DNA of 64,000 nt, from NCBI GenBank assembly GCA_943737045.1, contig CALSFV010000404.1, forward strand, positions 105,001 to 169,000. Direction: 5' to 3'. Positions 15,301-55,000 of this stretch are shown piece after piece. Source of the DNA: Parapristionchus giblindavisi. Lineage: Eukaryota; Nematoda; Chromadorea; Rhabditida; Diplogasteridae. Both the position numbers and the translations under genes were made by a program. The first letter of the stretch is position 1. The number at the start of each line of letters is the position of its first letter. The notes under the pieces are model-generated. The model had not been told where the DNA came from. It ran no database searches and worked only from the letters and a program-made list of their open reading frames with translations.

Positions 15301-18300
15301 ATATTTAGTTTATCTATACAACCATCTAATTAATTTCATTTTCATCATATTCTCTCTTTTCAAAACTTAAAATGTACTTTGATTTGTCTTGATAGATACA
15401 TCACTCAGACTCAATTTAAGTAAACTACAAGAGAAAGAACATTTGGCGAAATGCATTACAGTATACCACTCCACTTAAAGTAGACTTTCGGTTAGCTTGT
15501 AGTTTACTTAAATTTCAAGTAACAGTTATAAGTAGACTAAGTTTTGAAAGACCCGAGTATGTGAAGTTTTCTTAGAGGGATGTCCTTCGATAAAGAAATG
15601 TGATGGCCCATTTTGGTATCCCAATTATCGTTACTAGTGTACACAATCCAGGGATGGGCGTAAAATGAAAATTTTACGGATCCGTAAAAGCGTAAAATTT
15701 ACGGATTCAAAATCCGTAAAATCTTTAAAACATGCTTCTAGTTTGACATTTTCGTATCATAGCAGTATTAATCAACGCAAAAATTAACAACACTGAAACT
15801 GCACATCAACGGAAATGAAAACAAGTGGATCTGCGCTATTGACAATTAGAAACCACATCACTGAATGTTCTCATTGCACTTAGGTGAATTCAGAAATTTT
15901 ATGAGTCAACGATGTTCAATAAGAACATAGTTAGACTACTCATAGAAGTGCTGTATGTATAAGTTTTTGAGATCAAAAAACATTTTTTGTTCAATTTTCT
16001 CTTATTTTTTAAGGATTTATTTCTTTAAAATATTTTACGGATTTTTATTTTACGGAATCCGTAAAATAAATATTTTACGGCCAATACCGTAAAATCCGTA
16101 AACGTAAAATCCCATCCCTGACACAATCATAAGATAAAGTGATCTATTGGAGACAAATAAAGTGGAATCTATTCCCATATGTAAATTAGATATAATATTG
16201 CATTACTGTAATTGTAATGATCTATAATTTACAGTATCGAATAGAGATTAAGAATATGGAGAAGGAGATTAGAGAGAAGGATGAGAAGTAAGTGAAGACA
16301 ATCAATCATACATACCGTCAAAACGAAAAAAAGTGAAACATTTGTGACAGATTGTGACAAAACTTCACAAGATTCCCATTTTTAGCATTTTTCACGACCC
16401 TGATGATGATGATCATAGGTGGGCACCATAGGTCGAATAGCTAGGTTATCGGTTTACAAAATGCGGTCAGGTTTTTAGACTTTTGGCAAATTTGGCTCAA
16501 AATGCGGTCAGGTTTTTCGATTTTTGTGAAATTTTGGCTTAAAATGCGGTCAGGTTTTACGATTTTTTTGGAAATTTGGCTCAAAATGCGGTCAGGCTTG
16601 GTGCTTTGTAACATACTTTTCGACCTATGGTGGGCACGCTGGGGGAAAGGCTGTGCGCAAACCGGGGAAGAATGAGGCAAGGCTGTGCGCATGGCTATTT
16701 TTTGACGAATTCGACTGGAAATTGTCCGATTTTTTGCGAGGCAAGGCTATGCGCAAGTCCTCCATGGGAAGGCAAGGCTGTGCGCAAAAAATTATCCGTT
16801 TCCACGCGTCCATGTATGATGATGATCTAAGGTTTTTTATTGTAAATGTGTTTACCCAGTGCAGTTATGCACGACCAAACTGAAAAAATATCGGGAGCGC
16901 TGAGGAGCAAAATTAGTATACTGTATCATATTATAGAATCTTACTGTAAAACTGCTGCCTTAGCGCTTTTTTTCGTCTAATCATGAATATGTAATATTTA
17001 GCATTACCTGACTTCGTATGGCGAATTTGCACTGTTTGGATCATGGCATGGATAAAGCTTCAAAAGTGGTATACCGTAGAAAATCCTACCGTATTCCAGT
17101 TTCATAAAACAGCGTTCACAGTGATTTATTAGAAAAAATTTCTTCATATGTCAATTAAGCAAACTCAGTGATGCTCAAATACCCTATTACATAATAAAAA
17201 AACTAGAAACCGCGTTTAGATTTCATGATTCAAAATGTTCAAAATCCTGTGAACTTTTGTGGCAATTTGTCACAAATGTTTCACTTTTTCCTTTTGACGG
17301 TATGTACTCCATAGATAAAAAGTACCTTACAATATATGTGTTACGTGGTTATTCGACCTATATTATTCATATCTTGAGGATTCATCATTTACATGAAGAA
17401 TTAAAAGAATTAAATGACAAGAAGCGTAAGGATAATGTCAAAATTGAGGATTTATCTAAGCAGATTGAAATGGTAGGAGAATATATATGGAGATGCTTTG
17501 ATAGATATATAATTATAGGAGAATGATAATTATTCAATATGTGAGAATGAGAAAGATAGATTGAATGTAGAACTGGAGAGATATAGGAGTTTATATGAAG
17601 AGAAGATTAGAGAAAATGAAGAAACAATGAATAGATTAAGAGAAATGGAAGTAAGAAACAGAATGAATATGGAAGAATTGAATGAAATAAAGATAAAGAA
17701 GAGTATGGATTTATTAGAGAAGAAGATAAAAGTATCATCTAAAGCTATTCTGTATTGTGATGCTATCAGTAAAAAGTAATTTATTTGTAAATGTACTTAA
17801 ATGATTGAAATAATTAAGAATCTATATGCATAGTGATGGAAGTCGATTAGGTATGGTATTCATACAATTGAAGGACAAATGGATTGATTATCATAAAAGG
17901 GCTCAAGATATATCTTCGAACTATAAAGTATTAATCCTTTTTTTGTTTTATACCATACTATAATTATTTAGATTTATAATTATATTGATTGGTATGGATT
18001 AGATGAATTAATTGAACCAAGGATTCCTATTGATGCTTATGAGCTTATACTAACATCTTATGAATATCATTATGGTAATTTACATAAACATTCATATGAT
18101 CTCGCTGTCAATGTCAAGTTCTTCCTATTGGATAAAGGAAAATCATATCCCGAGTTAGTTTATTTTTAATATTATTATTTTTCTTTATTCTTTATTTTGA
18201 TTTTTAGTGCTTATATTCATGGAGTGATTCAAAAATGGATGAAAACATTGAGTGATCTGCCTTCTATTAGCTTTGATTCGAATGATGATACTCTTGTTGA

Positions 18301-18908
18301 AGTAAGTTCATTTATAGTGCATATTATAGCATAGTATATGGTTCATTGATTCATTATATTAAGAGAGTAAGTCGTATGGTAGTGATTGCAATGGGTGATG
18401 ATATTCAACCTCTTCTTCCTCCTCCTCATTCCCCCTCTCCTCCTCCTCCTCCTCCTTCTACTTCTTCTATTCAATCATCTAATCGTCCTCTTCCTAATCT
18501 ATCTCTCAATATGAACAAACAATTCAAACGAAATATTCCTCCCCCTACTCCTCCTACTAAAGTATGGAAGAATCATGATAAGGTATTCATATTATTAATA
18601 TAATATAATATATATTAGATATATTGATATGATTGAAGGTTCGTCATGTATCTCTTATGAATCATGAATGTTTATTGTGTTTGGAAGTATTTGATGAAGA
18701 TAATGATATTATCTTTCATTGTGAGAGTGAATCTTGTAATGAACCATATCATAAACAAGTAAGTTCATTCCTATATATTCTAATCTCTTATATATTCATA
18801 TCATTTAAGTGTGTTGATGATTTGTGTGCACATTCTAAAATTGGTGTTGCTCAATGTCCTAATTGTAGAAGACCTTTCCCTAGTAGAGAGGAATATCCTA
18901 GACTATAA
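6341..18908 (+). CDS. TTC3/DZIP3-type coiled-coil E3 ubiquitin ligase (probable)
   Basis: Multi-exon gene. The start ATG at 6341 encodes MSDSEDDLCPCADC. Around 7215-7550 there is a cysteine/histidine module (CTKCIE, CCDGCTLFLHRSC, CLCPTDGCGYEVEE) like the zinc-binding domain of TTC3/DZIP3. Then come lysine-rich exons (9010-9110), DRGHVFLPGLTVVGQRGG (9546), helical exons to 10560, a long charged coiled coil (10683-11365), more helices (17390-18170), a proline-rich stretch (18400-18580) and a C-terminal RING-like domain: CLLCLEVF, CNEPYHKQ, CPNCRRPF, ending REEYPRL (18663-18905). A C-terminal RING after long coiled coils fits TTC3/DZIP3. I see no TPR repeats, and the second junction (about 6456-6635) is unresolved. 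Large introns hold the foldbacks at 7577 and 11814, the hAT-like element at 15649 and a MITE nest at 16315. Family moderately sure; function inferred. Confidence 0.6.
7577..8985. mobile_element. Tc1-like foldback element (1.4 kb) in an intron of the RING gene
   Basis: Termini CAGTATCGGCGTAAAG and the exact complement are flanked by TA duplications (7575-7576, 8986-8987). The arms are several hundred bp and near-identical, so each arm yields the same 61-residue ORF in mirror orientation; these are not genes. No transposase is visible. It sits in the intron joining ...GKEFIL to WLRCVVEKK. Confidence 0.88.
10826..11190 (+). repeat. 42-bp coding tandem repeat (14-residue helical repeat)
   Basis: About eight to nine copies of a 42-bp unit encode DEWRRNEEERKRKE, with an alternate KRNEEE form. 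Fourteen residues equal two heptads. The alternating E and K/R composition predicts a coiled coil or a single stable alpha helix in the RING protein. Long ORFs on the opposite strand and in another frame are by-products. Confidence 0.9.
11814..14786. mobile_element. 3-kb foldback element, CAC termini, ATAA duplication (CMC/Chapaev-like)
   Basis: The termini read CACGGGTCTCC with the complement GGAGACCCGTG, flanked by direct ATAA (11810-11813, 14787-14790). The two arms of about 1.3-1.45 kb pair almost throughout around a centre near 13110. CAC termini with 4-bp duplications match Chapaev-type CMC transposons by established criteria. No transposase ORF is present, so it is non-autonomous. It sits between RING-gene exons ending near 11720 and starting near 14800. 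The second copy of this type is at 61721-63203. Confidence 0.8.
14210..14620. mobile_element. piggyBac-like MITE (TTAA) nested in the foldback
   Basis: Inverted termini AATGATCATAACTCGG with complement CCGAGTTATGATCATT, flanked by TTAA on both sides (14206-14209, 14621-14624). The opposite arm of the host foldback carries the uninterrupted site CTCTTAAGAG at 11992-12001, so the insertion and its duplication are directly visible. No coding capacity. Confidence 0.9.
15649..16120. mobile_element. hAT-like MITE, TIR CAGGGATGGG
   Basis: Begins CAGGGATGGGCGTAAAAT and ends ACGTAAAATCCCATCCCTG, with a perfect 8-bp duplication ACACAATC (15641-15648 and 16121-16128). The sub-terminal regions repeat TTTTACGG motifs. 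No transposase. The 8-bp duplication with CAGGG ends assigns it to hAT. It lies in an intron of the RING gene. Confidence 0.93.
16414..16818. mobile_element. hAT-like MITE, TIR CATAGGTGGGC, with minisatellite interior
   Basis: Left end CATAGGTGGGCACGC, right end GCGTCCATGTATG, flanked by ATGATGAT (16406-16413, 16819-16826). The interior repeats GGCAAGGCTGTGCGCA about four times. It is interrupted near its left end by the element at 16427-16629. The flank is itself a short GAT repeat, so the duplication is weaker evidence here than elsewhere. Confidence 0.65.
16427..16629. mobile_element. hAT-like MITE, TIR CATAGGTCGAA, copy 1
   Basis: CATAGGTCGAATAGCTAGG at one end and ACATACTTTTCGACCTATG at the other, with a perfect 8-bp duplication GTGGGCAC (16419-16426, 16630-16637). 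The interior is about four degenerate units of roughly 40-45 bp built on AAAATGCGGTCAGG. Confidence 0.92.
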
Positions 18909-22400: not shown

Positions 22401-25400
22401 TACATTTATCGTCAAACGAAAAAAAGTGAAACATTTGTGACAAATTGTGACAACATTTGAAGAAAAAAACTTCACAATCTTCCGGCTTTTAGCATTTTTT
22501 TCACGCTCTTAATGGTGTATTCATAGGTCGAATAGCTAGGTTATCAGTTTTCAAAATCCGGTCAGGTTTTTGATTTTTGGCAAATCTGGCTCAAAATCCA
22601 CTCATTTTTTTGATTTCTGTGAAATTTTGGCTCAAAATCCGGTCAGGCTTGGTACTTTGTAACATACTTTTCGACCTATGGGTGTATTATCTAAGGTTTT
22701 TCAGCGTGCATGTTTTGCCTAATGCACTTATGCAGGACTCAAGTAAAGAATTATGCGGTACAAAACTGGTATACTGTAGCATACTCATAGGTCGAAAAGT
22801 ATGTTGCAAACAACGAAGCCTGATCGCATTTTGGATTTTTTTTTAAACCGACAGTATTTTGTGAAAACCTGATTTTACTGTAAATGTGCGGACACCATGA
22901 TTTCTTCTCCTAATTATGGATGTATCTATCATTAACTGTTTGGATCATGATATTAGTCAGACTGCAAAAACAGGTATACGGTAAAGAATTCTACCATATA
23001 CCAGTTCTACAAAATCAAGGCGAATAATTTATTTATTTTTCTTCATAGGTCGAAAAGTATGCTCCAAAGTACCAAGCCTGGCTGCATTTTGAACCAAAAT
23101 TTCCCAAAAATCGAAAAAGCTGACCGCATTTTGAAAACCGATAACCTAGCTATTCGACCTATGCCACTGATGGTCAAATACCTAATTACCTAATAAAAAA
23201 ACCAACAACTGTGTTGAGATAACATGAAACAAAGTTTTTAAAATCTTGTGAACTTTTGTCAAATTTTGCCAGAAATGTTTCACTTTTGTTGTTTTTACGT
23301 TATATATAATATGATACCATGCAGCCCCATTAGTTATTCCATTAACAAATACATCTCCATTAACGGATAATCCACATCTTCGACCACTCTTCCACATATT
23401 TGAATGAGCACGAGCATATCTGCAACCAATAAAGGCTTCATAACCATACTTATCTCAGTATTATTACATTATTATTATACATATTATTATAATATTGTAT
23501 TGACAGACTGACCTATATGCCATCTCAACAAATAAGATATCATCATCACTGGGAGTATATATTCCATCTTGTCCACTTTCAGAATCATCATATGGATAAT
23601 TAGCAACCAATGAACCTATTGAAGAAGATAAATACTTTATATCATATCCTAAATACCTCCATGAAGATTAGCCGATATGATAAATGGTTGACTCTTCAAC
23701 CATTCCATTACTGCTACTGTCTCAGGTTCAGGGAATAAACCTAAACAATATCATTCAATAATCAATATAATGAATATAATGTACCTGAAGTCTTCTCCCG
23801 ATGGGATGGAAATCGAGGAGGGAAATTACGATTCAAATCAACACCATGTACATTCTCTCGTCCCTTTATATGAATGAATGATCAAAGGATACTGTAGATT
23901 GTAAAGATACTGTATATCCTTGTCGATCTCCATCAAATCCTCTTTCATAACCATCAGGATTCATAGATGGCATTAAATGTATTCGAGTTGAATCAATCAA
24001 TGATGTTATCCATTTATTCTTTCCATAGTTCTTACATAGTATATCCATTAGATATAAGATAGTCTCACGACCGACAACCTTCAATACATCTATGTACACA
24101 AAATAGATAGATAAATCAATTATATACTCACTTCATTTCCATGCATATTGCCCACTAACTTCACTTCAGGTTCCAATTCTTCGTGAATTCTTGGATTATC
24201 AGAGATTATGATGACCTATAATGGTATCAAATATATCTGTGTCTGTTTATTCATCATTGTAATCTCAAACTAATATATTATTCCATTCTTAAGATATACA
24301 TGCGATATACTCACAGAGAAAATTTACTTACGAGATGTTCTGTTTAAGAAATTGACTGCTTACAACAAACATCAGAAATTGAATTTCTTACTTTTCAAGA
24401 TGATTTGTCACCGATATTTCTTATAATTAAGAAAATGAAAAGCAAGAAATTATAAATTTAAGTAAATTTTGAGCGTGAGTAGGCACAATTGATAGATTGA
24501 AAAGAATACCCAGATATCTCTTCCTTCACTACTCTTTCCAATTGAATATAAATGAGTGATATTAGGATAGTTAAGTGAAGTCTCCTTCAACCATGCAGTC
24601 ATTTTAGTATATCCATGATTGTAGATATCACTATTGTTTACATCATCCAATGGTCCTATCCTTCAATAAATATATTCGACATACAGTAATCTAATATTAA
24701 TATTAACCAATTTTTAATATTTTTCACACCCCTGGTTAATATTAATAATATTAACCAGGGATGTGAAAAATTTCCCGACCTTTCCGAAATTTCCCGGACT
24801 TTTGCGTGAAAATCCATTTCCCGATGAAAAAATTCGGGAAATTCGTTTGGCGAAAAAAAATGAGCTTTCGAAGAAAAATGATTGTAAATTAGTAGTTTTG
24901 AAAAAAAAATCACATATTTTGAGAAAGCAAAGCAAAAGATGATTAACGGAATTTCGAAATGAAGATTTCTGCCAATGTTTTTGGTAGCGCAGACATAGTA
25001 TGAGGCCTTTCGAAGAACCATTTTCAAAATGAAAGTCAAAACAGTTTAAGACATCGGCTCAGTGAGATTCCATGAAGTGCCGGACATCGACCTCACCGAT
25101 TTGGCCCAAAAATTTTTATGGATACCCCATGGGCCCCCATCACAAAATGGGTATTCATTTGGGCTGGTTCCTTGAAACACAGATGTGGCGGGTTTTCGAA
25201 TTTTGAAAACTCGATTTTCACCGAAAAAAAAATGGAGCGACCTAGGACCAATGTTAGTGTCGATTAATTATAAGCATAAACAGCAGGGCTGGGATTTTTT
25301 GTTCGGTATTTTTTTTTGTTTTTTGGTTTTTTGAGAATTATTTGTTTGGTTTTTCTGCAAAAACCAAAAAATAACAACAAAAAACGGATAAAGAAAATTT

Positions 25401-34719: not shown

Positions 34720-34795
34720 ATCAGATAGGTTGAGATAAAGGAAAAGGATGGAAAATGAAAACTATATCGACCACATATTATATTAAATCTAAAAT

Positions 34796-35092: not shown

Positions 35093-35123
<31 letters not shown>

Positions 35124-35321: not shown

Positions 35322-35369
<48 letters not shown>

Positions 35370-38300
35370 GAATGTACATACGTGATGAGTAATTGTCCAT
35401 CAGGGAGATAACATAATCCACGAGGAGAATCCAGATGTTTGTAGAAATAAGCAGAATCAAATCCACATTTACGAATGAATTGACCCATTGCAGTGAAGAT
35501 CTACAATTATTACTTTGTTATGTCTCCAAACGGTTTTAATTAAACATATTTCATTTAAAAAAGTAATATAACTCAACACTAGTTTCACAATGAAAATATA
35601 GGAATATAATAGTTTGTATAATTTTTCTTTTCAATTTGCATCTTTTACCCATTTATTTACTCGAAGGATCATGGAATATATGTGGTTCGGACCATTTTTG
35701 GCGCTTAAAAATGAAGGAAGCGGCGCAATAAGATTACATATTTCAAAAATTGGTTGCTAAGTTGTTGTAAAAAATTGTTTTGATGATAATTCTATCCATA
35801 GCATACGCGGGCACCACTGCCGCTAGCGGCAACACATCCCCGATTTTTGTCACCCGACCCCCCGATTTCCCAAAAATCTCACTCAAAATGACGTATAGAT
35901 GCTCCATTTTTTGCTTCCGACCCCCCGATTTTTGCGTCCGACCCTCCGATTTTCATTTCCAGCGGCAATGACCGCCCAAGTATGATCCATAGTGGCAAAT
36001 TATAAAGAATAGAACGCTATAATGCGCCTTTTTGAGCTTTTTCAACAGAGTAATGTGATTACTGTGATTCGGAAACCTCGCTCGTAGTGTGGAGCAGGCT
36101 ACAGTAATCAAACTTCTTCCCGGCGTTGTTTCAAACATGCAAATACATATTTCTTTTTCGTTTTCGAGTATATCAACATGAGACAAATTGTTATAAGCAA
36201 TTATAATCGAAATGTTTAGATGTCAGCTGCCTTTAAAAACACATGAAAAAAGCAAAAATGGAAATTCGATATACTCATTCATTCAAATTCGCGGACGATA
36301 ATATACAAAGTCAGACTTGGCGTTTCCAGGGTATAAATGGGAACTCGGAGTTCTTCCACTATTTTAGGGACGGCGTCTCTACCAATCTATCTCTCTCAAT
36401 TTGATCCATGAGACTATACTATATAAAATACTACAATAACCCAAATCATAAGCATACTTCATAATATTTTTAAAAAGGTTTGAGTTGAGCTATGAGATAT
36501 TGTTTTAAGAATTTTCATTTAAAAATATTTGCATTGTCATAGAATACTTACTTGTACTCTATGATTCCTTGTATCAGACACAGCAATATTATTGATATTA
36601 TTAGTTGCCACTCCCCATGGATAGTTAAACATTCCAACTGGTCTTCCTCTTTCTCCAAACTTTAGAATGAATGTTCCATCTTGATCAAATACCTACAATC
36701 ACCAATCGATCAACCAATCAATCAATACTATCATACCATAATATTATAATAAAGTCTCTTATACAGTATATTATACCTGAATACGATGATTATCTTTATC
36801 AGCTACAATAATCTGATTAAGAGTATTTGTAGTGAGTCCTGCAGGTCTATCAAACTGTCCAGCTCTCGTTCCAGCACTTCCAAACTTTGTTATGAAATGT
36901 CCGTCCTTGTCGAATATCTACAATCAAATCAATCAAGTAAATCAAATCAATATGTGTACCTGTATTCTATTATTAGATCTATCAGCAACAAGTATTCTTC
37001 CTAATAGATCACAACATATTCCCCATGGTCGACATAACTCTCCATCTCCTGATCCTTCTCTACCAAATGAGAATAATTCTCCTTGATTACAAATCTCTTC
37101 ATAGTTTCTACCACGTCGAACATCAACTTGAGTTGGACAACCGCTACAATTATAATATATTCATCATATATACTATACATGGACAACCATTCTTTCTGTA
37201 AATTCAAATCGCGTCGCGCTTTACCAAGTTGAGGGACTCCATACTAACTTTTTTCTTCATTTTTGAATAACTTTTGGCTAAATCGGATGGGTCGGGTGCC
37301 AAAACCGAGTGGGTCTTGTCGCTAAAGACAATGCCGCCTATGTACGATATAGACCAGGGCTGTGAGTAAAATAGTTTTCGTAAAACGTAATTTTACGACT
37401 TTTTCTCTCGTAAAATTCGTAAAAAATTTCGCTAAAAAATTTCGCGTCAAAATTTTAAGAAATTGTCCCTGATTTATTTATAACAAAAGATGGGAAACTC
37501 GCGAATGTTCATAATGATTCTCTTATGAAATGGACAAACGATAAGCAATAAGTTACAAATAAATTTTTTTTCTATATAATACAGGATATCCCAAAGGCTG
37601 AATTTCCGACGATTCTTTAAAATAATTTCATCAATTTTCAGTATTTTGCCATTTTTTCTCGTTTCGTTAAATTTTAACTATTCGTAAAATTTTACGGAAA
37701 AAGTCGTAAAATCGTAAAATTCGTAAAATCGTAAAACGTAAAATGCACAGCCCTGATATAAAATATATAGATTGAATACTTGATAGAAGTTCCTCTAAGT
37801 GTGATATTAAGTGTATGAGGTCCATCTTGAAGAGGAATATATGATAGTACAACAACTCCTCCATCACGTTCACTACAATCATATTATATATATATACTAT
37901 ATATTATTCAATATACTAAAGACTTACGAAATAGATACATCAAGTGGATTTCCATTGGGAGCTATTACAGTACCTTCAACTGATTGTCCTTTTGTACGAC
38001 ATATCTACAATTGTTACCATACTAATCACAGAATAGCTATGTTACACATTTTCATAATAAGGCCAGGTCTGTGAAAAAAAGCAATAAAGGTTACAAAAAA
38101 TCCCTATAGGCTACAAGGTTTTCAACAACAAAAATATCCCAAAATGCGGACAGTCATCGTAGTTATTGACATGATACTAATCAATACAAGATATATTATA
38201 ATACCTGATTACAAGCATCTTTCAATTGAACAGTTACAGCAGTCTGTCGTTCACGTATAGCTCTTCTAAAACCTTCACCCAATATCTGAGAGTTCCTAGC

Positions 38301-41300
38301 ACATGGTCCACTTTCTAATCCACCTAGACCACGCAATCTCAAAACAAATACTTTATAAAAAAATTATAAATGAATCATACTTAGCAAGAAGATTAGGATC
38401 AGGGTGTAGAAACTTAATAGAATCAGTTTCATTCGTTTGTCTTCCAATACGAGGAATTGAATACAACTTAAATACATCACACTTATATATCTTAACGGAT
38501 GAATGGATAACATACCTCAACCATCTTTTCGAACAAAACACCTAATTTGTGATTATCATCATCATCACGAACAGATTCACCCATTTGTGCCATCTTAATA
38601 CATTCATTGAGGAACACAGTACATCAGTATACAATAGAGTATATAATATACCTGTTGTAGTCTATTCTTATGTAGATTAAGAGTTTCAGATTGAGTAGAT
38701 AAACATTTCATTTTTGATATTCGAGTTGTTTCAACTAACGATAATAATTCCCTCTTTCTTTCTTCTAATGCAGATATGTGCATATGCATTACAGATCGAA
38801 GTTCCGATGCTACTGCCTACAAACAATTATAATTAATCATAAATGTCTATATCTACTTCCATTCTTCGTTTCTTCATACTTCCATTCTTTATTATATCTA
38901 CTATATCTACATTCATTCTGCCCTTCTGTCTGCGGTGCGGTCGGTTCGAGTAAGCTCTCCGTTCCACTCTCGCCTATTCCATCAACAGAAAAGGATCAAC
39001 AGTCGAATCCCATCCTAGAAGGCTTTGGAATGCCTGGAGGTGTACTTCCAACTGTCAAGCAGGCCTAATGTGTAATATGTGTAGATGTGTAGATAGTGTA
39101 AATATGTGTAGATAGTGGAACGTTTTCATGGGTTTTCTACTCCTATCAACAAGTTCAAGTTCGATTGTTTTCTTGAATGGAGAAAAATATCTCTCAGAGA
39201 CGGAAGAATAAGAAATTTTTTTAAATACCACATTTTAAAATAATTCTGTCATGTCTGATTTTGCATAAGGTGGCACAATGTCATGTATGGCCATCTGAAG
39301 GAAATCTAAGATGGAGGGACGCCGACGTATAAATCATATACTTAATAATTCTACCATTTATATTACATAGACTAGCAGTGCTAGGGGGATCCATTAATTT
39401 TTTTTACTTCTGAGCGTTTCATTATTATACTTGAAGCGCGGGAGGAGCATTGCGCTAGCGTGGAAGGGTGCTGCGCACCCTTCCGCATAGACTGTTCGAG
39501 TCGCCCAGTATGGACACTTTTCTCTTGTTTTCTCACTTATTAGACGAATTGTCGAAAAAAATATATGAAAAACGACAACATAAAACTATTTGCTTTGAAT
39601 TTTGAACAGCAAAATTACTTATTATACACCAATCGACGCGCAAAGAGTAGTGCTACAACTTTCTTTGCCATATAAAACGCCGAAAACAATTTTAAAAATA
39701 AGTTTAACTAAGAAAACTGGCAAAATCGTGTTTTCGCACCTTTTCGGCGATTTTTCGCGGCAAAAAGAGGTCGTGCGGAGGTGAAGTGACATATTTTCTA
39801 AAACAATTTTTCAAGGGCTACAACATGAGCATAGTTTGGTTGAATAAAAAAGGTGCGAAATTCGAGTTTTTTGAAAAAGTTAAAAATCGACCATTCTTCG
39901 CGACCGCCCAGCTCCGCGAATATTGCTCGGAATGAGTTGCGTCCAAAAGCAAAAAGTTCAGTCTCCTCGAGTTGTACAATTTAGTTTCAGGAGCCGGGAC
40001 GCGAAAATTACGTTGAATACGTGAAAATTGCGAAAAACCTACTTTCCGTATTTCTTCCGAGGTCTATTTCGTCATCATCCCGGGGGACAAGGCGCGTGGC
40101 GTTAGCACCAAAAGATGCGCCGCAAAAAGTTGTTTAATATAAGTCTTAATCTCAAAAAGTTATAGAGCCGATTTTGAGCAATCAAATTATGCGCGCACGA
40201 TTTTTGCATTTTTTTGCTCTCCGCCAACTTCGAACGTTAATCTCGCGACAACCCGTGATTGGGAAAAATCGGCAAAAATACAAATTAGATTGCCCCAAGT
40301 CTTGTGGTCATTTTGATATACCAACTTTTAATTTTTGACACATTTAATATCAAGTTTGGCGTCAAAAAGTGCAAAAAACCCGAGAGCCGGCGTTTCACCT
40401 AAAAGACGGCTCCGGATCGGCTCGGGACCAGTGCCATTCGATCCGGCGTGGTCGAAAACCCCAGTAGCCGGAATCTGGTATAAAGCGCACAAGGTCCTGA
40501 TAGAACAAATTTTAAAAAACCTACCGCGGTAAATCGGTCGAATTGCGATTCTTTATATAGGGGTTAATCATACATGGGCGGGGTACCTGGAGCTCGATTC
40601 TACAGAGGGCATAAAACCGAAAATGCTTAATTTTACAGAGGCCTTCACTTTTTTTCAAAAATTTCACTTAAACATCTTTTCTTATAGGGGGGCATTCCAC
40701 AAATTTTCCAACAGCTCTAATTTTACAGGGGGCATTCCACAAATTTTCCAACAGCTCTAATTTTACAGGGGGCATTCCACAAATTTTCCAACAGCTCTAA
40801 TTTTACAGGGGGCATTCCACAAATTTTCCAACAGCTCTAATTTTACAGGGGGCATTCCACAAATTTTCCAACAGCTCTAATTTTACAGGGGGCATTCCAC
40901 AAATTTTCCAACAGCTCTAATTTTACAGGGGGCATTCCACAAATTTTCCAACAGCTCTAATTTTACAGGGGGCACCACCGGGTCGACGCCCATGTATGAT
41001 ATAGATACCTGTACAGATGCATCAACTCGTTCAATCATTCTACTTATTCCTTCTTGTCCTTCATCTATCCTCTTTTCCTCTTGTCTCGAATCAGCTAACA
41101 AAGCAATCATCGCACAACGAATATCTCCTTAAATAACATCAATCAATACAATATAATAAGATAAATGATAACTAACCAATAGGTACAATCTTATGTCCTC
41201 CATGATCACATAGACAAGATGAACAAAGAGCTTGACATTTACACCATTCACATATACCAATTAGTTTACTCTCATGAATACTACATAATGTAGAACAGGA

Positions 41301-43073: not shown

Positions 43074-46000
43074 ATGTTTGGAAATGTTAATTGGACACCT
43101 CAGAGTTTCTCTATGATGCGTAAGTTTTTGTATATTTGTGGTAATTGTACTTTTGTAAAAAGCTCTCCTATTCATAAGTTCCTCTTTTAGAGCTTGCACT
43201 GGAGGATGATTCGGGTGACCTTTTGGAAAGTGGTATGCTTGTCGTTAAGTTAATGATATGGTTATCTTTAATTGATTGACTTTTCATGCGTATATTTATA
43301 TTAAGTTTCTTTTGAGAAATGTATGGAGACGATGATTCTCGATTGGCTGTACTAACATCCAATGAAGTGAAACAACTGGCAAAGATGGCTCAAAGTTTAC
43401 TTGTCAATGAAAGGTTATGCTTTTACATCTTATATTGTCAAATCGAAGTGATTATTGCCATTTCAGAGAATCCGCTGGAAGAGAAGTTTGCAAAGTTTTG
43501 CGATATGTTGATACTCTTTCATGTCCTAAACTAGCCGATGAAGTGTTCCAAGTCATTGATTTATTGGCCAGAGATCAAGGTTTGTACCATTCAGTTAATT
43601 AGTATCCATTATGTGTAATAATTGCAATTAATATGTTATACTTTATTTTGATGTTGTCTATTGTCACATTACAAAAAATCCGTTGTAGTCGAATATGTAG
43701 TTTGTTCAGTTGAGATAATATAATTTGTTTACAGCATCATGTGTCCAATGTGCTCTTTTGGAAGGAATGAGTTCAATGTTATCATTATGTGCCAAATCAG
43801 CAGTATTATCACCATTCATTCCTTCTATTCTTACTCCTCTTCTTGTTCGAACTCTTACTTCTTCAAGTACTGATAACGTGAGTTATCTATTATAATTAAT
43901 CAGATAAACTTTCCATATTTGTGTCAGTCTCTACACTGATAATATTGTATTGTCTTTGTCTATTCTATTCTTTGTCTCATATTCTTCTTATTGGTCTTTC
44001 TCTTATCACTCTGTATTCACTATCAATATGAATCATTGATAATCTCTCTACGAGTAACCATTAATATGCATTTAAACGGCTTAATTCAAACGTTGCATTG
44101 AAAGGTCACACATATTGTATTTAACCTAACAATATCAAAGTCTAGGGAAGAATTAACGCTATTTAATAAAAATATATTTCCATGACTGAATTATTTTCCT
44201 GGACTGCGTTAAATAGTGATGCTGTATTGAGTGCTAGGTGGTGAAAGCTAGGAATTATTTTGCTGAATCGAATTTAAGGGAAAAACCATGATTAGAATAA
44301 ATATTTTACTATAATTGATTACTGTAGTGCATACATGGGCGCCGTCATGGGGTGCCCCCTGTAAAATTAGTGCTGTTGGAAAATTTGTGGAATGTCCCCC
44401 TTTAAAAAATGACGTTTAAGTGAAATTTTTGAAAAAAAGTGAACGCCCCTGTAAAATTAACAATTTTTCCTTCGGATGCCCCCTGGAATCGAGCTCCACT
44501 GGAGTACCCCGCCCATGTATACTGTAGCATCTTACGAATCAAGGAATTTTTCTGATCCTTCGATGTCGTATACCGCTTCTTTTTTACTTAATGATTTACT
44601 TAGTTTCTTAGTTTTGAGATAAAACATTTAAAATGGGGTAGGTTAATTAAAATTGTTAATCTGAAAATTTCAAGAATAAACAGCGAACACCCAAAAATAT
44701 TAGGAATGTAACAATTCTTTTAAACGGTAAAGAGGAGTAGTATTTATCATATCATTGTACGAGAATTTTGCAAAAAAATCTTGATTTAATTACTTATTAG
44801 GTTGAGTCAGAGTTAACCGTGGATTTTAACTTCAACTTTGATTTGCATTTTTGTTGTTATTCAAATGAATGATAGTAGCCGCAGTCATTGTCGATGGTGT
44901 TCTACCAAAGTGGATTCTGCTTCTTCATTCCGTCCTCGAAACACGTGGCCGGCTTGAAGACGAAGTAGGATGCATAGTGGGAGTGCAAAAACGATTTTTC
45001 CGCACTCAGCCTTCACTTCCCTCCTGGGTCTCGCACGTGACCTTGAATAATTGGAAAAGGTGAAAAATTGCTTTTAAAAAACGGTATGATTTTATGTCCG
45101 TCGGGTAACAGCACGCCTAGTTTGGGGACGTCCTCTCCCTGATCCTCCGTTTTCACCCACTGGGCACGTGAGAGTTGGGGGGGGGGTTATTGTATATGTG
45201 CAGTATCGCGAGACTGGAGGTGTTATCTCAAAAGAACGGGAAAAGTTCAAATTCGAACCAAGAAAATCCATGGTTAAAGGGACGGTATCTCTTGCAGAAT
45301 TACATGTTCAAATTCGCGGGAGATCCCCATACGGAAAAGTCGAACTAGAATATCTCATAGAAATCAGCAAAAATCCCAACGCAAAGTGGTGGTTGAACTC
45401 TTCAGCTACTACCTTTGAGCGCGCCGTAGACCACTAGGCCATCAATGGACAAATGTTTGGCAAGTGCTATACCTATTCATGATCTCTTTGTATTCGCTGG
45501 TTGTATTATGAGAGATCAGATGTTCGCCTATTCCTTATGCCGATTTGCCAAAATTGATTGGACAGAAGACGAGTCGCTTCCTATCCAGTCTATCTTTTCT
45601 CTTTCATTATGTTTTGTCACTGCCACGGCGCAGATATCAATGGCTATTTTCAAAAACTACCGTATGATAGTTCGTTAATTCGTGGTGGGACAAAATTTTT
45701 TTATGGAAAACTCCCTTTAATTCAGACTAACCTAATACATTTTGGTATGATTTTTATCAGTGTGTTTGAATTTCTGAAAGTATGTCATATTGAAACGAAA
45801 ATTTTGCCGGTTACTTTCCAAAAATATCATATTTGTCAAATAAAAACAGTAGGGCACAATACTATGAACGGTAAACTCATAATCAAGTGGTGAAATTTCG
45901 CTGGGATCAACATTCCACTACATTTTCTGGTTCAAAGTGGAAAACCTTGAGGTATAGGGTTATTGTAAGAAGTTACAGTAACTATCGACCAGTGGGTCAC

Positions 46001-49000
46001 TATCGTTGCCTTCTACAGTAACTCTATGGAACCTCAGGATGTTCTACTTTTAACCAACAACCTTTGAAAATTGATTAATTGATATTGAAGATATTGAATG
46101 ATTATGTTGTTCTTGTTGATCATGATGAATTGATTGTATTCGTCGTTCCTTCCTTCTCATATTGAATCACTCACTATTCAAACACTATTCTTGCTCTAAC
46201 GTTTCAAACCCCTTCTTCTTTTCTTCTTCTTCTTCTTTCATCTCTAACTCTTTCTATTTCTTTATTTATCTTCTCTACAAATTCATATACTCGGTATGCA
46301 CGACTGATATAACATAAAATTAGCTTTACATATGCAATCAATCATACAGCAATACCTGAAGACTGAACGTTGGCATACAAAGTTATATTAATTGTCTTTT
46401 GTTTAAGAGTAGAGCTAGAATTTTAGTCGCACCAATTTTGGCCGATGTTGGATGCGTATATGTTTTTAAAGCTACTGAAAATATGATAGAGTTTACGTGG
46501 AGGTCCTCGATTGCATTTGATGGGATGACAAAAGACATAATTATAAAATACTGAATATGACTACTTCTGGGACACTGAAGATCTATTATTCCATTTAATC
46601 GGTTATTTTCGGGGGGAAAGTACTTGGAAAACACAAAAGGGTGTCTGTTTTACCCTCTTGGAAAAAGTACTGTAAAAAGTTCGTAGTAGAGCGAGAGTCT
46701 TGACACTTCGTTTATAAGCTTTTTTTGCGATTTTAACACAGAAAATCTTCTCTAGATAGTCATTGAACAGATATATGTTCTTTTTCCGATATGGGGAAAC
46801 TAACACCCTTTTGTTTTTTTTTCCGAATGCTTTTTTTGCCCCGGAATAAAGATCATTCCTTTTCAAGTAGAATGACATATTTTACCGTCTAATCTAAATG
46901 TATAATCATGAAATATGTTTTTTTAATGTTTACCTTTTGAAGATATTTAATACTATTATTATTTGTATGACCCTCATCTCATCTCTTCTTCTTATGTTCA
47001 TCTTGTTCTTCTCTTCTCCAATCCATTTCATTTCTCTAATGCACTGTTACATTTGCGTTACGTGCCTACTCCGTAACCCCCTCCGTCGCCTCTCAGACGC
47101 GGCGGAGGGGGTTACGGCGTAGGCACGTAAGGCAAATGTAACAGTGCATAACAATCTCTCATTCATTTATACTTCTTCTCTCTTTATTTCATGTCTTATC
47201 TCGTTACTCCTACTCCTTCTTATTGGCGTCTTTCCACTTTTTCCTACTGGCAAGAGCCCTTCTTTTGAAGGTTTCCCTAACAACTGGGAGTAAGAGGAAA
47301 GAGGATGAGAGAAGGAGAAGAGGAAGAGGAAGAATACGAGAGAAGGAGAAGAGGAAGAGAAAGAGGATGAGAAAGAATACGAGAGAAGGAGAAGAGGAAG
47401 AGAAAGAGGATGAGAGAAGGAGAAGATAGCTAGCTAGAGACAATATGGATTGGCCCCTTGGTAAGGAGAGGAAAAACGATGGAAGAAGAGGAGAAAAGCA
47501 GATGGAAGAAAAAAAGAAGAAGGAGGAGGAGGAGGAATAGACAACTAACATCTGGGCACTGCACATCTCCCCTCTCTTATATATTCCATTTATTTCTTGC
47601 CATAGAAGAAGGACCCGAAAGAAGAAGACGACACAAAACCTTGTGGAGAAGTTATGAGGAATTAGAGCCAAGACAATTTTAGAGTATGAAACAATCGAAT
47701 TATATCTTATTATTAATGATAGAAAGCGTTAATGAACAACTCTTTTCCTTTGTATAAATATGTATGATGTATTATTCTTCTCCATACTCATAGGTCGAAT
47801 AGCTTGGTTATCGGTTTTCAAAATGCGGTCAGGCTTTTCGATTTTTGCGAAATTTTGGCTCAAAATGCGGTCAGGCTTGGTACTTTGTAACATACTTTTC
47901 GACTTATGTCCATACTCTTATATAGTTAGAAAATATATATATTAGGATATATGTATATGATGATGGGATGGAATGGATAGAGCAATTACACAAATGAGAA
48001 CTCTTTATTTATGTCTATTGATATGAATTCAAATTGATATTGATGAGAAAGTGATTAAAGTACGTTCACTTTGTTTACAGACTTTCTTTTGATTGGTTTT
48101 TGGAATGTCAAATGGATCTTATATAACATCTTGTATTTCCTTTTAAGATATTTTTTAAATGTACGAACGATTTTTTTCGACGGAAAAAATAGATCAAAAA
48201 TCAAACAAATGATCACTTTTCTAAGAACTTCAGAAAACGAGTCTTATAAGGTGCAGAGAAATGAAAATGTCGCTCGTAATTTTTTTAAAAATCTTTAAAA
48301 GGAATTCAGAAAATGTTATACGTGTCTTTCTGAAAGATTTAAGACGGAAAGATGAAGAGATGAAGTTAGAACTTACTTTTATATTCATTAGTATGATATA
48401 GTGTTAAATTTAAGGTAAAAGTTATGATATCTCACTTTCTATTATACATGCATTTGTCTCATTCCCTTTCTTTCTTCTTGTCACTTTTTGTCTTACCTTT
48501 CGTCTTCTATGAATGGCCACAATTGATGATTGGTTCACCTTTACTACTTTCCATTTCCCTTTCTCTCAATGTCTTTCTACCTATCTCTGCTGTGGCATAA
48601 CTTTGAATGTCCTTGAAATGGAAAAGACTCGTGATCACGAAAGGGGAGGTAGAAGGGAAACCACATAAAAAAATTGGGATATGATGCAAGGACATGGAAC
48701 AGCTAGATGCATATAGAATAATCTATATTCCCATGTGTTGGATTGATTGCTATCTATATTTGGTTCTTTGGATGAATCGATAGTAATATCTTTCTCTTCT
48801 TCTTCTTCATTTTGTTGTGTTCTTCTCTTGTTTCATTTCCATCTCTTCCCTCCTCTTCTCTTCTTCTTTTCTTCTTTCACTTTGTTGGTTGTCGTCATTG
48901 CTTTCCTCCTCTTCTTCGATTCCCCATTCTCTTTCACTTTCCTCTGTCTCTCTAACATCCTCACTTCTCTTCTTCATTCTATACCATTTCATCTTTCTCT

Positions 49001-52000
49001 CTTCTCTCATGTTATCATCTCGATGCGTTTCTCTGCGTCTCTGACTCCTCTCTGTTCATCTGGCACTCTTGTCTAGCTGCCAGCCGATTGGTTGATTCGG
49101 CTGGCAGAAGGATGCTGATTGGCGGAGAGAGAAAAGGAGGCGGAGTCGAGAAGGGAGGAGAGTGAAAGGGAGTCGTGCCACAAGGAGTGTTTGTGAGTGC
49201 CTCGTCTTCCCATCCTCCTTTCACTCTCTCCTTCTCTCTCTCCCTTTGTCTACTTTCTCTTTTTCCTATTTTTCTCTTCTCATAGAACTTATCTGTAGGT
49301 TCGCAAAAATGCCATCGGTATCGTTGGTCTCTTACTGGAGCAAACGCTCATTCCTCAAGGTAGTTGCTGTTTGTCCATCTTTCTTCCTTCAATTTCGTCA
49401 TCACTTCAGAGTGTCTTCTATCATCGATTATTCCTACTCTTTTCTCACTATGCTCAGTTGATTTATCGCACGATGCTCATACTTATATTGCTGATGAGCA
49501 ACGAGTGGAATCAGCTTCAGTGAGTTTTTATATTTCATCAACCATGGCTCCTTCTCCCTTTCATCTCTCCCCGTGCACCTTTCTACAACAGTCGTCATAG
49601 TCGTCATCAGCAGTCTCCAAGTATCCCATTACCTCGTTCCATTCCCTTTCATGTTCCATTCACCAATACTTTCGGTTTTCCTTACATGTCAATTGACAAC
49701 CCTAGAGAGAGCGAAAGAGAAAGTAGAAGAGAGCAAACTCCGCCTCCTTTACACTTGCCATTGCTTTCTCTGCCCATTCTCTTCCCTTCTCTCGTTCTGC
49801 GTGTATGCATTGCATTTATTTAGTGAAGAAAGAGATGCGAGATCGTGGGCGGAGTTTTTGAGAGTGGCAGAGGAGAGAAGATAGAGGGAAAAAGTAAGAG
49901 CACGAGAGTCTGCAAATGAGAGAATATGTCAACTTCAGAGAGTGGTTAGATTGTTAGAGCGATTGTTCGCTTGTCTCTTTCTATTAGACTTTCCCTCTTC
50001 TCCCTCCCTTTCTGCCGAATGCGTCAGAGCAGCGAAGGTGAAAGACATGGGTAGTGAGACGAAGATAAGATGTGAACTTCCGTATCACTATTCTGTCCTT
50101 CGCCCTTGCTTCTGTCCCGGCTCCTTCCTACTCTTCAGGTATTTCCCCAATTCCAATTTTTCATGTAGATTCTATCTATCAATTACGTAGTCCCGTCTAG
50201 ATGCGAAGTTTGTTACTGGCACGTCAAAGTGGTGGGTGATTTGTCGACTTGATGCTCATATCACAGCCAGCTTTGATGTGCTGTAATGAGCGCAGTCGCA
50301 TGCCCCTTTCCACTCCTCACTTCAACACCTTCAACCCTCGCCACTTAACACCATTCACAATCATTCCTTTCATACATGGGCGCCGACATGGGGGTGCCCC
50401 GTGTAAAATTAGGGCTTTTCGAAAATTTGTGGAATGCCCCATGTAAAAAATGACGTTTAGGTGATTTTTTTGATAAAAAAGTGAAGGCCCCCTGTAAAAT
50501 TAACCATTTTTCGTTCGAATGCCCCCTGTAGAATCGAGCTCCAGGTACCCCGCCCATGTATGATTCCTTTAGCACATTCTTCAGTTTTGCGTTTGTTTCA
50601 GGTGCTTTGCCGAACGATTGCTACGGGTCTTGTGAAGGATCGAGCATGGATCCTATCGGATTTTGTTCCAAAATATTCATATCTTCTGGCGGATTCCATC
50701 TTCCACATAAGAAAAGTACAAGAGACACATGATAATGAATATACAATGAACGAATAGAAAAGCATGTATAGTGCAGAATGAGAAGATTGAATATACATGA
50801 TGTGATGAGGGAATTAATCTTCATTCAGGCAGCAGTTTCGATTCTCGGTGATCTCTGCAAGATGTATGGGGAGAAGTTCGCCGTTGAGGTGTGTTTTGTA
50901 GAACAAGTGGGGCGAACGACCATAACGAAATAATGGAAAACAAAGTGCATTGAATGGATTCAATCCAGAGCGTTTACTTTATCTTTCTTCTCGGTCGTTT
51001 TCTTCTATAGAGTGCCGCTTTATGCTGTAATACTCGTTCGTCGCTGAGAAGAGAAGAAAGAAAGGAGAATAGAATGAGGAAAAAGAAATGGAAGGCATCT
51101 CATACTGTTTTTATCGGAGCTAAGAGAATTGTGAAATCATAATAGAGTGCAGGAATAGATATCGGTGTTATACAATAGATAATTATGCAAAATAGTCTAA
51201 ATCATTGTATTGGATAATCTCGACACACCACTGCCCTGACCTATGCTTTTCTTCTGGTATTGTTTTCGGAGTCTGTGACCCACTCTATAAGGCTCATTTT
51301 TATGCGAAAAACAACGATTTTCTAAATCGACCCATCATATTTCGAAAATCGACCCACTATATAAAAAAATCATGTAAGAGCGCCGAAAATGTATTATCTA
51401 AATGGAGAAATATTTCCTTTAGTTTACTAAACATTTTTGTAGACTAAAAGTTTTGGCAGTTAGAACACGTTTTGTAGAAAGAAGTGTCATTGTTAGTTCC
51501 TTATATCATTTTTCTTCATTCCTTATATCATTTTTCTCGATACTCTCGTATCTTTTCATTCTAATGGATGGAGAGAAGGAAAGACTTCTAAATCTTCTCT
51601 CTTGGGTGTACAATTATGAGTATGAGAAGGGAGAGGGTGTAGAGTTGTGAGCAAGCTATGCAGTGGATGAGAGAAGGCGACAGATACCACGGATTGAGAA
51701 ACTCATATTGTCTTGCAGTTATTTTATATGCCCAAATTTGAGGCATCTTTGAACTACATGAGTAAAAGATGGAACACACCATTAAATACTGTATTAAGTA
51801 CCGTCAAAACGAAAAAAAAGTGAAACATTTGTGACAAATTGCCACAAGATTTTGAAAATTTTGCATCACGATATTTAAAAGCGGTTGCTAGTTTTATATT
51901 AGATGATAGGTTATTTGAGCATTACTGGGCATGCCTGCATAGGTCGAATAGCTAGGTTTTCGGATTTAAAAATGCGGTCACGTTTTTCGATTTTTGGCAA

Positions 52001-55000
52001 ATTTGGCTTAAAATGCGGTCAGGTTTTTCGATTTTAATGAAAATTTTGGCTCAAATGCGGTCAGTTTTTTTCGTTTTTTTTGTGAAAATATTGCTCAAAA
52101 TGCGACCTATGCATGCCTGATTGACCTGCGAAGAAACAAATTTAAATAATTCACTGTGAATGCTGTTTAGTGAAACTGGCATACGGTAGGATTTTCTACA
52201 GTATACTAGTTTTGCAGTCTGATCTATGCCATGATCCAGACAATGCAAATTCGCTGTTGGGAGCCATGTAATGAAAGACACATCCATGACTAGACGAAAA
52301 AAGTGCGATGGCAGCAGTTTTACAGTAAGATTCTACAGTATGCTACAGTATACTAATTTTGCTCCGCATCGGTCGCGATTAATTTTTTCAGTTTTGTCGT
52401 ACATAGCTGCATTGGGCAAACGCATCCACACTAAGAAACCTAAGAAAATACATCATCGAGTACGAGAAAAACGCTAAAAATCGACATTTGTGAACTTTTG
52501 TCACAAATGTTTCACTTTATTTCGTTTTGACGGTATTTAAATATATTTCAGTTTGCGATTCCTCATATTATCTTAGTGAGTAAAGATGATATGTGGGGAG
52601 TACGTAAGGCAGTGTGTGAAGTATTTGTTGATATTGCCATCTTTTGTCCTCATCCGGTATCGATCTACTTTATTATCATGTAATGAATACTTATTGTTAA
52701 GCTTCGTCGTAGTACATTAGCACCAATCTTTGTTTCTCTACTCCGTGATACATCTAGATGGGTATCATATATTGCATTCCAAGAACTAGGACCATTCATA
52801 TCTACATTCGCTGATTCATCTATTACTGGATTGATGCTCAAAGATGGACAAGTGTGTAGACATGAACCAGAAAGTATTGAGAAAGAAAAGAAAGAAGATG
52901 AAGTTGTATCAGTATGTAAAGAGATTCCATCTGGTTGTTATATACCTCCTCTACCTGATAATATTAATGGAAGAGTGAAAGATGAATTGGATGAAGCCGA
53001 GTTAGTTATATCATCTTATCCATCTATACCACTAATAGATTACTGTATTTGTTGTAGTGCATTGGAACAATTATTAGGAGATATGAATGATGAGAAAGAG
53101 AAGAGTGGAGTACAACGATGTAGAAGTGAAGAACAGTTAATCGGTATCTATCTATCTATCGAGATATATAATGTATTGATCGATTTGATAGGTGGACATG
53201 GAGTAAGTAGTAAATGTCATTCTCTGGATGATTTATCAAAGATTGGATTGGATAATGATATCAAAATGATGGATAAAGATGATGAAGACGAAATGGACAT
53301 TGTAACTGAAAGAGAAGCTGTATAGTATCTGTAAGTCTAATGATTATAATGATGATATTTGTAGTCATGTGGATCTCCTCCTCCATCATCATCTACTCAC
53401 AGTTCATCTGATGATTCATTCTATTCAAATGTATACTGGTCTAGTTATACCATTGATGATGAAGTCAGTTATACTTTATTTTGTTTCCATAGATAAATGT
53501 ATCATATTGATTGTTTCAGATGGAATTAACACCATTTGGTAGTAGTTCAGTTGATTCACCTAAAAGGAAGAAAAGAGAAGAATATATGGATAAGAGAATG
53601 GATGTATTGATTGATAATAGACAATTGAATGAGAAAGATGAGATTGATGATGGGAAGATGGAGATTGATAATGATAATGACAAGAGTAACAATCATGATG
53701 AAGTATATTCTAATGACATTTCATTTATAATATTATTATATATATGTTATAATTAATGAGTTGTGAAGGTATATTTATAGATAGTTCCATTCGAATTAGT
53801 TGAACATTTTGTGAAGATGGTAACAGGTCCTTCCAATGATGCAGGTTGGTTCAAAGAGAAATGGGTCAAGGGTGAGTTATGATATACTATCAGGGATGTG
53901 CATTTTACCATTTTACTACTTCTTTACAAATTCTTACGAAAAGTAAAAATTTATAGGTGTACTGTACTAGATACATAAGGCTATGTCATAAGCCGACAAC
54001 ATGCGCACTGATAATAGAAAGAGTCTGATTAAGGATACTTTGAATACTCTTCTCATCTTGACTAACAATATTCCACTCTTTGGAATTAGTTAATAGATTG
54101 TATTCATTCGATTGTACACACAGACATGATCATAAACCCCCACCAATGCACTTATTGATTGATTGATATAATGATCAGATATGAATCGTCAATGTGCTCA
54201 TAACTTCCCAGCAGTAGCATTCACTCTAGGAAAGGAATCATGGAATGATCTACGAGATACATATACTACATTATCTAAAGATCATCAGGTATATCATATA
54301 TCTATCTTATTTATTCTTCATCGTTCTTCTTTCTTCCTTTTTTCTTCTGAAATAGTTCGAATCATGTTATAATCTAGTTGTCATGGGTAGCGGTTGTTCT
54401 CATCCTTTAAAGGTTTTTTATTACATTTCTAGACGATTAATCGATATTAACAATATTGATATGAATATTGATTGATTGATTTAGTGGCGAGTTCGTGTAT
54501 CTCTAGCTAATTCAATGCATGAAATGGCAGTTATTGTTGGATCAGAAACAACAGAAAAGGATTTACTTCCTGTATTTGATGCATTAAGAGAAGATGTAGA
54601 TGAAGTACGAGGAGGTCTACTCAAACATCTATCTGATTTCTATAAGGTATACTGTATAATATTGTATTGATTGGATTATATGAGTATAGGGTCTACCTAT
54701 TCCATCTCGACAAGCAATGTTAACTAAATTACCTCATTTCCTACGTGTGGATAGAGAAGGAGAAACTAATTGGAGATTCAGATTGGAATTTGCGCGGTAT
54801 ATATATTGTATGGAATAAGGTGATGAATGATTACGGTATCCATTTAGTCAATGTAGTCGATTATGTGATCTATATGATGTTGATTCAATCAATGGAACAA
54901 TTGCTGGTATTGCCTTGACACTTGCTACTGGTATGTATTGATTGATTTAATTTATTGATTGATCTTGTGAATGTAGCACATTATAGTATTTGTTATGTCC

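Follow-up and report, generated by a model that had tools for sequence, protein, structure and literature searches.

Introduction

Miniature inverted-repeat transposable elements (MITEs) are often treated as transposase ends joined by arbitrary filler, and tandem-repeat-containing MITEs were reportedly described by Satovic and Plohl in 2013 and, in rice, by Inukai in 2004. Here we analyze a 64-kb stretch of the genome (251 Mb) of the nematode Parapristionchus giblindavisi (G000:C404:105001-169000, below called the window), which harbors short elements with CATA termini and repeat-built, helically ordered interiors.

MITEs with tandem-repeat interiors are already known, among them the pearl family/CvA, DTC84 (PMC5139131) and BrickBuilt (PMC4596501; see also PMC6947457). 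In ciliates, the lengths of Paramecium internal eliminated sequences (IESs) peak every ~10.2 bp, which was read as loop formation (PMC3464196, PMC3408717); ~10-bp length peaks are reported for both Paramecium and Blepharisma IESs, with a short DNA loop proposed (PMC3464196, PMC3408717, PMC9942856), and Blepharisma IESs longer than 115 bp are not periodic (PMC9942856). Periodic An/Tn clusters (PATCs) constitute 6-10% of the Caenorhabditis elegans genome (PMC7725773, PMC7706728), and Alu elements are described as nucleosome organizers, with reported periodicities of 84 and 167 bp (PMC2878307). Repeat-filled MITEs themselves being a known kind, what may be new here is the helical order common to several MITE families; a title/abstract-level literature search, with most subscription journals outside it, found no report of helically phased animal MITEs.

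Families of CATA elements in the window and in the genome

All four CATA element types announced in an earlier note on this DNA are present in the window; they are named here by their termini as F1 (CATAGGTCGAA), F2 (CATAGGTGGGC), F3 (CATACATGGGCG) and F4 (CATACGCGGGC). Three further families (F5, F6 and F7) were found in loci around F1 matches or in sampled DNA (Table 1). In total, at least seven families are present; they are non-autonomous cut-and-paste elements, mostly of 120-245 bp, with CATA ends and 8-bp target-site duplications (TSDs). The note had given the termini as CATA-N-G, of which the CATA part holds and the N-G part fails for CATACATGGGCG.

Seven CATA...TATG elements in the window carry a perfect 8-bp TSD, in agreement with the several perfect duplications noted before, and all seven perfect-TSD CATA pairs (60-500 bp) also agree at 9 or more of 14 terminal bases. 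Forty Markov-1 windows contained on average 0.025 perfect-TSD CATA pairs, and the ends matched in none of them. Among terminal tetramers composed of three or more different bases, CATA alone yielded two or more perfect-TSD matching pairs in the window; the real CATA pairs are therefore not due to chance. A clean TSD was found in one of the three F3 copies of the window (50371-50562). Being short and non-coding, with terminal inverted repeats, a TSD of fixed size and high copy number, the CATA elements are MITEs. The alternative that their repeats are coding relics was checked and is unlikely, since their longest open frames do not significantly exceed those of shuffled sequences in length.

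Exact termini were counted in the whole genome (forward+reverse matches), with the reversed pattern as a control. There are 3288+3131 ends of F1 (control 25+18), 1338+1335 of F2 (26+17) and 1387+1400 of F3 (1+0), as well as 1981+1945 of CATACATTTTCG, a terminus outside the four noted earlier (4+13). The terminal similarity thus persists in the larger sample, with thousands of exact ends. As another reference we used 17 stretches of 10 kb (L030-L046) from fixed contig positions, a 170-kb sample that itself contains some decayed CATA copies. None of the CATA elements in this sample combined plausible matching ends with a perfect 8-bp TSD, as opposed to seven in the 64-kb window, and the families look clustered; the sample does contain a copy of F1 at L037:7107-7223, as well as decayed copies of F7.

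Two observations concern the arrangement of copies. Ends of different families lie within ~25 bp of each other at G000:C1:829003-829365, C1:1295421-1295600, C2:616211-616425 and window positions 16414-16818, as if the CATA families inserted into one another's ends. Eleven single same-strand F1 units, 7-67 kb apart, lie in G000:C3:1615473-1828380, as if they were carried by a large segmental duplication.

Helical phase of A/T-rich stretches and motif copies

In all families but F5, A/T-rich stretches at ~10.4 bp run through the element in similar phase to both ends. The autocorrelation of A/T tracts peaks at lags of ~10, 21, 30-31 and 42 bp in F1 (weakly at 31) and in ten non-F1 elements; the peaks are absent from the 170-kb sample, and two of 500 sample draws attained the non-F1 score. 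Next, random pieces of the sample (20,000 resamples) served as the reference for spectral power at 10-10.75 bp. For seven families, one copy each, the tract power was 0.0748 versus 0.0284, and no resample was as high. Neither the seven families nor the six without F1 were matched by any resample for tracts, WW (two A/T bases) or AA/TT, and the SS signal (two G/C bases) gave p=0.0004 and p=0.0015, respectively. With draws matched also for tract content, the six families without F1 gave p=0.0002. Twelve decayed copies of at least 80 bp gave p=0.001 for tracts, p=0.003 for WW and p=0.001 for AA/TT. The controls were flat: eleven other inverted-repeat elements gave p=0.26, and 13 intergenic pieces p=0.23. 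Measured in one copy per family, the WW wave also has a similar phase relative to the left end (p=0.025) and to the right end (p=0.013); pooling both gives R=0.75 and p=0.0004, and the wave is coherent between the two halves of the elements (mean cosine 0.75).

These properties could belong to chromatin, that is, the phased interiors could be nucleosome-positioning or PATC-like signals that place a nucleosome or oppose silencing in the germline and take no direct part in the pairing of ends. This would agree with the 10-bp WW periodicity and antiphase SS that accompany positioned nucleosomes and with the resistance of C. elegans PATCs to germline silencing (PMC7706728, PMC7725773), as well as with the nucleosome-like lengths of F2, F3, F4, F6 and F7 (172-193 bp). 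However, F1 copies of 119-122 bp, which are below a full nucleosome, are common (five of 30 pairs among the matches listed), a general PATC system is not evident because the 170-kb sample lacks the signal, and the length classes described below are left unexplained. We consider this explanation unlikely.

A greedy search revealed in the interiors a family-specific motif of ~15 bp, often in four copies, all in the same orientation (one weak opposite-strand match each in F2 and F5 was left out). It starts at positions 30/71/113/156 in F1, 18/50/113/145 in F2, 25/65/116/150 in F3, 31/53/116/137 in F4 and 46/119/150/172 in F5; F7 has two strong and two weak copies, and F6 has three, one of them weak. 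The motif copies sit near whole numbers of DNA turns: tested at a period of 10.5 bp, twenty rule-based spacings cluster with V=0.68 (p=5e-6 against spacings drawn uniformly from 20-80 bp), and one value per family gives p=0.005.

We also considered the motif as a degenerate copy of its own terminus, for which permutation gave no support: the motifs are no closer to their own termini than to those of other families (p=0.26, 0.16, 0.30). The same numbers bear on the possibility that the ~15-bp motifs are sites bound cooperatively on one helix face by a transposase or a host factor, the A/T pattern following from the whole-turn spacing of GC-rich sites. Such binding would fit the direct motif copies, whose spacings lie close to multiples of 10.5 bp, and subterminal sites for transposases are a known feature of hAT and CACTA elements. 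On the other hand, the single orientation of the motifs misfits a symmetric two-ended complex, and the A/T autocorrelation peaks also at lags 10 and 20, at or under the shortest motif spacings. In our opinion, the binding explanation is unlikely.

A third possibility is descent only: an ancestral element happened to have phased tandem units, the families inherited and eroded them without selection, and lengths vary by slippage near 10-11 or 42 bp. Kinship between interiors is in favor of it, since F4 and F6 are homologous and F3 and F4 share the core AAAATGACGTNTAGNTG. The signal is gone from three of the twelve decayed copies, and in F1 the length classes are partly inherited, as the GGTAC base variant and a similar spacer recur in five of five clean two-motif copies examined. 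Still, families whose interiors show no detectable similarity (F2 compared with each other family, using 200 shuffles per pair) have the phase in common, and decayed copies that are 64-79% alike retain it when taken as a group. Descent without selection seems to us quite improbable.

Repeat-built interiors and satellites

The earlier note held that the ends are kept and the inside is replaced by tandem repeats. The interiors are indeed built of repeats, but these are copies of the family-specific motifs. Direct repeats (12 of 14 bases matching, lag of at least 20; one copy per family, 300 shuffles each) span 28-147 interior bases per family. No shuffle reached the observed value in six families; the seventh and weakest is F6, equalled by five of 300. 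Two, three and four units were observed directly in F1 copies, and five units are implied by 245-bp pairs. The spacers of F1 are position-specific, and the variant and spacer shared by its two-motif copies suggest that the shorter forms are partly subfamilies spread by transposition.

The seven 40-bp units seen in one F3 copy were confirmed (40688-40974, 7.2 copies, 100%), and the repeated unit is exactly the 40-bp interval from motif 1 to motif 2. Its 23-bp core has 13 matches in the genome with at most one mismatch: seven in this copy (40569-40998), one in the F3 copy 3.6 kb away (44330-44520), which has the sole other exact match, and five elsewhere. Exact copies of the F1 unit number 3342 in the genome, compared with the larger total of 6419 exact F1 ends, and no run of more than four exact units was found among the first 100 matches listed. 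Long arrays were found neither for the F1 motif (exact, the same 100 matches) nor for the F3 core (one mismatch), F2 and F4 units lying outside this search.

Lengths point in the same direction. They were measured between adjacent +/- ends less than 1.5 kb apart among the first 100 matches listed per terminus, which gave 30 pairs for F1, 36 for F2 and 30 for F3. F1 forms a ladder of 119-122 bp (five pairs), 159-163 bp (eight), 202-207 bp (nine) and 245 bp (two), with one-off lengths of 53, 107, 236, 330, 363 and 406 bp. F2 pairs measure 189-194 bp in 23 of 36 cases, with 182 bp (two), 202-204 bp (four) and seven others, and F3 pairs 191-195 bp in 22 of 30, with eight others; thus two of the three families measured are mostly near 192 bp. 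F5-type pairs have 228-229 bp (five) or 240 bp (one), and one F7-type pair has 192 bp.

The earlier note read the elements as a hAT-like carrier by which satellites are created or captured again and again and satellite DNA is seeded. For this speak the repeated interiors, the seven identical 40-bp units reached by one F3 copy and the F1 copies with two to four, and by implication five, units. Against it, the F3 expansion was found in one copy only, F1 shows no long arrays among the matches listed, F2 and F3 have mostly one length, and resident hAT elements end differently (see below). Because the F3 expansion was found in one copy and the listed F1 runs stop at four, satellite seeding is not a general behavior of F1 and F3; within the limits of these searches, core matches, short runs and narrow lengths rule it out, and the carrier reading is largely refuted for these two families. 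Overall we find it very improbable. The CATA interiors do not represent captured satellites. The window's long F3 array would be a rare by-product without spread, and repeat-filled MITEs need not be satellite factories.

Length register

The usual lengths of six families (204, 192.5, 192.5, 183, 172 and 192 bp) leave similar remainders when divided by 10.4 (0.46-0.62), while F5 (229 bp) deviates. It is suggestive that the canonical lengths in these six of seven families differ by about one helical turn or its multiples. Twelve length classes, with the F1 ladder entered as 120/162/204/245 and F2 as 182/192/203, fit a period of 10.4 best when periods between 8 and 14 are scanned (R=0.81, p=4e-4, uncorrected for kinship and scan). 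At the level of the seven families R=0.67, and after collapsing related families p=0.01 with F7 kept.

A possible role of DNA geometry

Helically phased, bent or nucleosome-favoring DNA may help to pair ends that are less than 250 bp apart, to which we assign somewhat less than an even chance. A bend in the DNA and a correct facing of both ends would ease pairing between ends within ~1.6 persistence lengths; the bend could be supplied by helically phased A/T tracts, or the tracts could wrap a histone octamer, and the register would be maintained by whole-turn spacing. Direct motif repeats would allow units to be gained or lost by recombination or slippage. The F1 steps of 41-42 bp would correspond to four turns, so that the register would survive and both shorter and longer forms stay mobile. 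A more doubtful proposal is that the MITE lineage is under selection for DNA geometry, by which unrelated interiors keep phased A/T tracts and same-face motifs, lengths change by whole turns and ends stay registered for pairing. With the same reserve, the "minisatellite" could be seen as the shape taken by a mechanical part. A geometric constraint on the filler, if it exists, would help to explain the narrow lengths and repeat-built insides of many MITEs.

Several observations weigh against a role of DNA geometry. The family-level length test reaches just p=0.04 and fails (R=0.57, p=0.20) when F4 and F6 are collapsed and F5 is kept instead of F7; seven F7 copies with readable ends alone give p=0.064, and singleton lengths are not all in register (F3: 185, 197, 199, 206, 213 bp; F2: 156, 165, 175 bp). 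F5 is nearly waveless and lies out of register by half a turn. The phases of six additional F7 copies are scattered, that of the copy in L042 being clearly off. Singly, p<0.05 was obtained for just five of 18 sequences, and second copies of F2, F3 and F7 reach p=0.04-0.05, which makes helical phasing a group property. Among the decayed copies, the signal is carried by the nine tested first (tract: 0-2 of 20,000) and is missing from the remaining three (tract p=0.80); taking all twelve instead of nine weakens the result from ~1e-4 to ~1e-3, and SS in the twelve gives p=0.18. Motif spacing and A/T phasing are not independent of each other, the tests are post hoc, and the families are few and partly related (F4/F6, F5/F7 and the F3/F4 core). 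The phasing could be inherited rather than selected, and the role in synapsis is one that we infer.

Superfamily placement

The description of the elements as hAT-like agrees with the 8-bp TSD, the size typical of this superfamily, and not with the termini. The hAT terminal consensus is YARNG (CAGNG/TAGNG), whereas all seven CATA families have T instead of A or G at position 3, and F3-F7 have C at position 5. The TSD preference of hAT elements is nTnnnnAn; thirteen perfect CATA TSDs agree with it at 14 of 26 positions (p=0.02), compared with 13 of 14 in seven hAT-type TSDs (six at hAT-domain matches and one of a CAGGG-ended 166-bp element), the signature being weaker in the CATA elements (Fisher p=0.015).

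The genome contains 21 matches to the hAT domain PF05699. Resident hATs with readable ends finish with TAGGG or TAGAG (TAGGGTGGCGAGAA or TAGAGACCGCC ends, or a TAGGGTGGTGGG start), and the autonomous CATA-ended hAT that the earlier note had suggested looking for was not found: no match lies inside a CATA-ended element within the 3-kb loci around the matches, the ends of several elements lying beyond these loci. Loci with such TAGGGTGGCGAGAA, TAGGGTGGTGGG or TAGAGACCGCC ends are L011, L012, L017, L018-L020, L021-L023 and L028; the hAT copies within L018-L020 and within L021-L023 are more than 99% identical and therefore were probably active recently.

Other transposases considered as CATA partners were those of P, MULE, Merlin and KDZ, and, like the hAT search, these searches gave no CATA-ended element. 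There were no genome matches to P-type PF21787 or the KDZ domain PF18758, both likewise without matches in control genomes, and none to MULE PF10551 (six-frame search ignoring introns; three of 14 control genomes positive). Merlin PF12762 has two matches, one in an element whose readable ends and TSD are unlike those of CATA elements (Table 1) and the other without an end pair read.

Features in the window and reference loci

Table 1. CATA elements of the window and reference elements from other loci
Location	Strand	Feature	TSD	Remarks
16414..16818	+	F2 element (CATAGGTGGGC...CCATGTATG)	ATGATGAT	interrupted by nested F1; 194 bp without it, close to the usual 192-193
16427..16629	+	F1 element, 4 motif copies	GTGGGCAC	nested 13 bp into F2
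16457..16596	+	F1 tandem units of 42 bp		3.4 copies
22522..22680	+	F1 element, 3 motif copies	GGTGTATT
22786..22833	-	F1 right end		solitary
23044..23163	-	F1 element, 2 motif copies	no clear TSD
35802..35984	+	F4 element (CATACGCGGGC)	ATCCATAG	motif CCGACCCCCCGATTT at 53, 116, 137, weaker at 31
37256..37338	+	decayed F6/F4-like fragment		75%
40569..40998	-	F3 element	none	perfect 7-unit 40-bp expansion between motifs 1 and 2
44330..44520	+	F3 element	no clean TSD	right end imperfect
44973..45084	-	decayed F2-like fragment		67%
47789..47908	+	F1 element, 2 motif copies	TCCATACT
50371..50562	+	F3 element	ATTCCTTT	usual length, 192 bp
51296..51394	+	decayed F7-like fragment		79%
51938..52111	+	F1 element	CATGCCTG	right part degraded
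L004:662-890		F5		terminus CATACATTTTCGAG
L004:2012-2183		F6		terminus CATACGTTGTCGAC; relative of F4
L004:235-426, L007:2422-2604, L034:4478-4656		F7
L047:1168-2869		Merlin-type element	GTTAATTG	ends GGCACTACTCCAGA

Among the neighbors of these elements, mir-71 and mir-2 precursors adjoin at 50033-50109 and 50217-50285 (Rfam gathering scores reached), and the F3 MITE at 50371 begins ~85 bp downstream of this pair. A Gypsy-type polyprotein is encoded by an open frame of 1084 aa at 56159-59413 (minus strand) with reverse transcriptase, integrase and DUF7083; among the best 120 of 1182 relatives listed, those with a name come from animals, nematodes being prominent at the top, and a similar frame, judged by eye, starts at L042:6578. 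An SL1 search gave no match among the 50 of 54,441 candidates that were scored. An open exon of 212 aa at 52687-53325 (plus strand) has no Pfam match; presumably it resembles protein phosphatase 4 regulatory subunit 1. A 90-bp tandem repeat (15.5 copies, 50-1448) is open in several frames, one of them a PYETKTSKGYSNPPNP-type repeat. Outside the window, repetitive translations seen as open reading frames at L036:7083-9999 and L038:4786-6460 suggest two tandem arrays unrelated to CATA elements.

Comparison with known systems

Like the CATA elements, MITEs of the hAT superfamily are non-autonomous and have an 8-bp TSD and short terminal inverted repeats; the CATA elements differ from them in ends other than YARNG, in a weak target signature and in that no CATA-ended hAT transposase was found in the loci examined. 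For satellite seeders such as Tetris and pearl one would expect long arrays of their own unit elsewhere; none was found for the F1 motif among the matches listed or for the 23-bp core of the F3 unit. Alu, as described in PMC2878307, is a short dispersed element fixing nucleosome slots, as the CATA elements may be, but a retroelement. PATCs share with the CATA interiors A/T runs at a ~10-bp period, and no PATC-type signal was seen here in the 170-kb sample or the intergenic control pieces.

The pearl/CvA, DTC84 and BrickBuilt elements have, like the CATA MITEs, an interior that is a short direct-repeat array of variable length. Unlike them, the CATA MITEs comprise several families with different motifs in one layout and one helical phase, and no link to satellite arrays was found for them. 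The closest published parallel is the loop logic of ciliate IESs. IESs are, like CATA elements, short and transposon-derived, with length peaks about one helical turn apart, a spacing that the CATA length classes also suggest; they are largely TA-bound and cut by a domesticated PiggyBac in ciliates, whereas the CATA MITEs have 8-bp TSDs, greater lengths (120-245 bp), phased A/T tracts and motif repeats. If the geometric reading is true, the helical-loop rule of ciliate IESs would extend to ordinary transposons of 120-245 bp.

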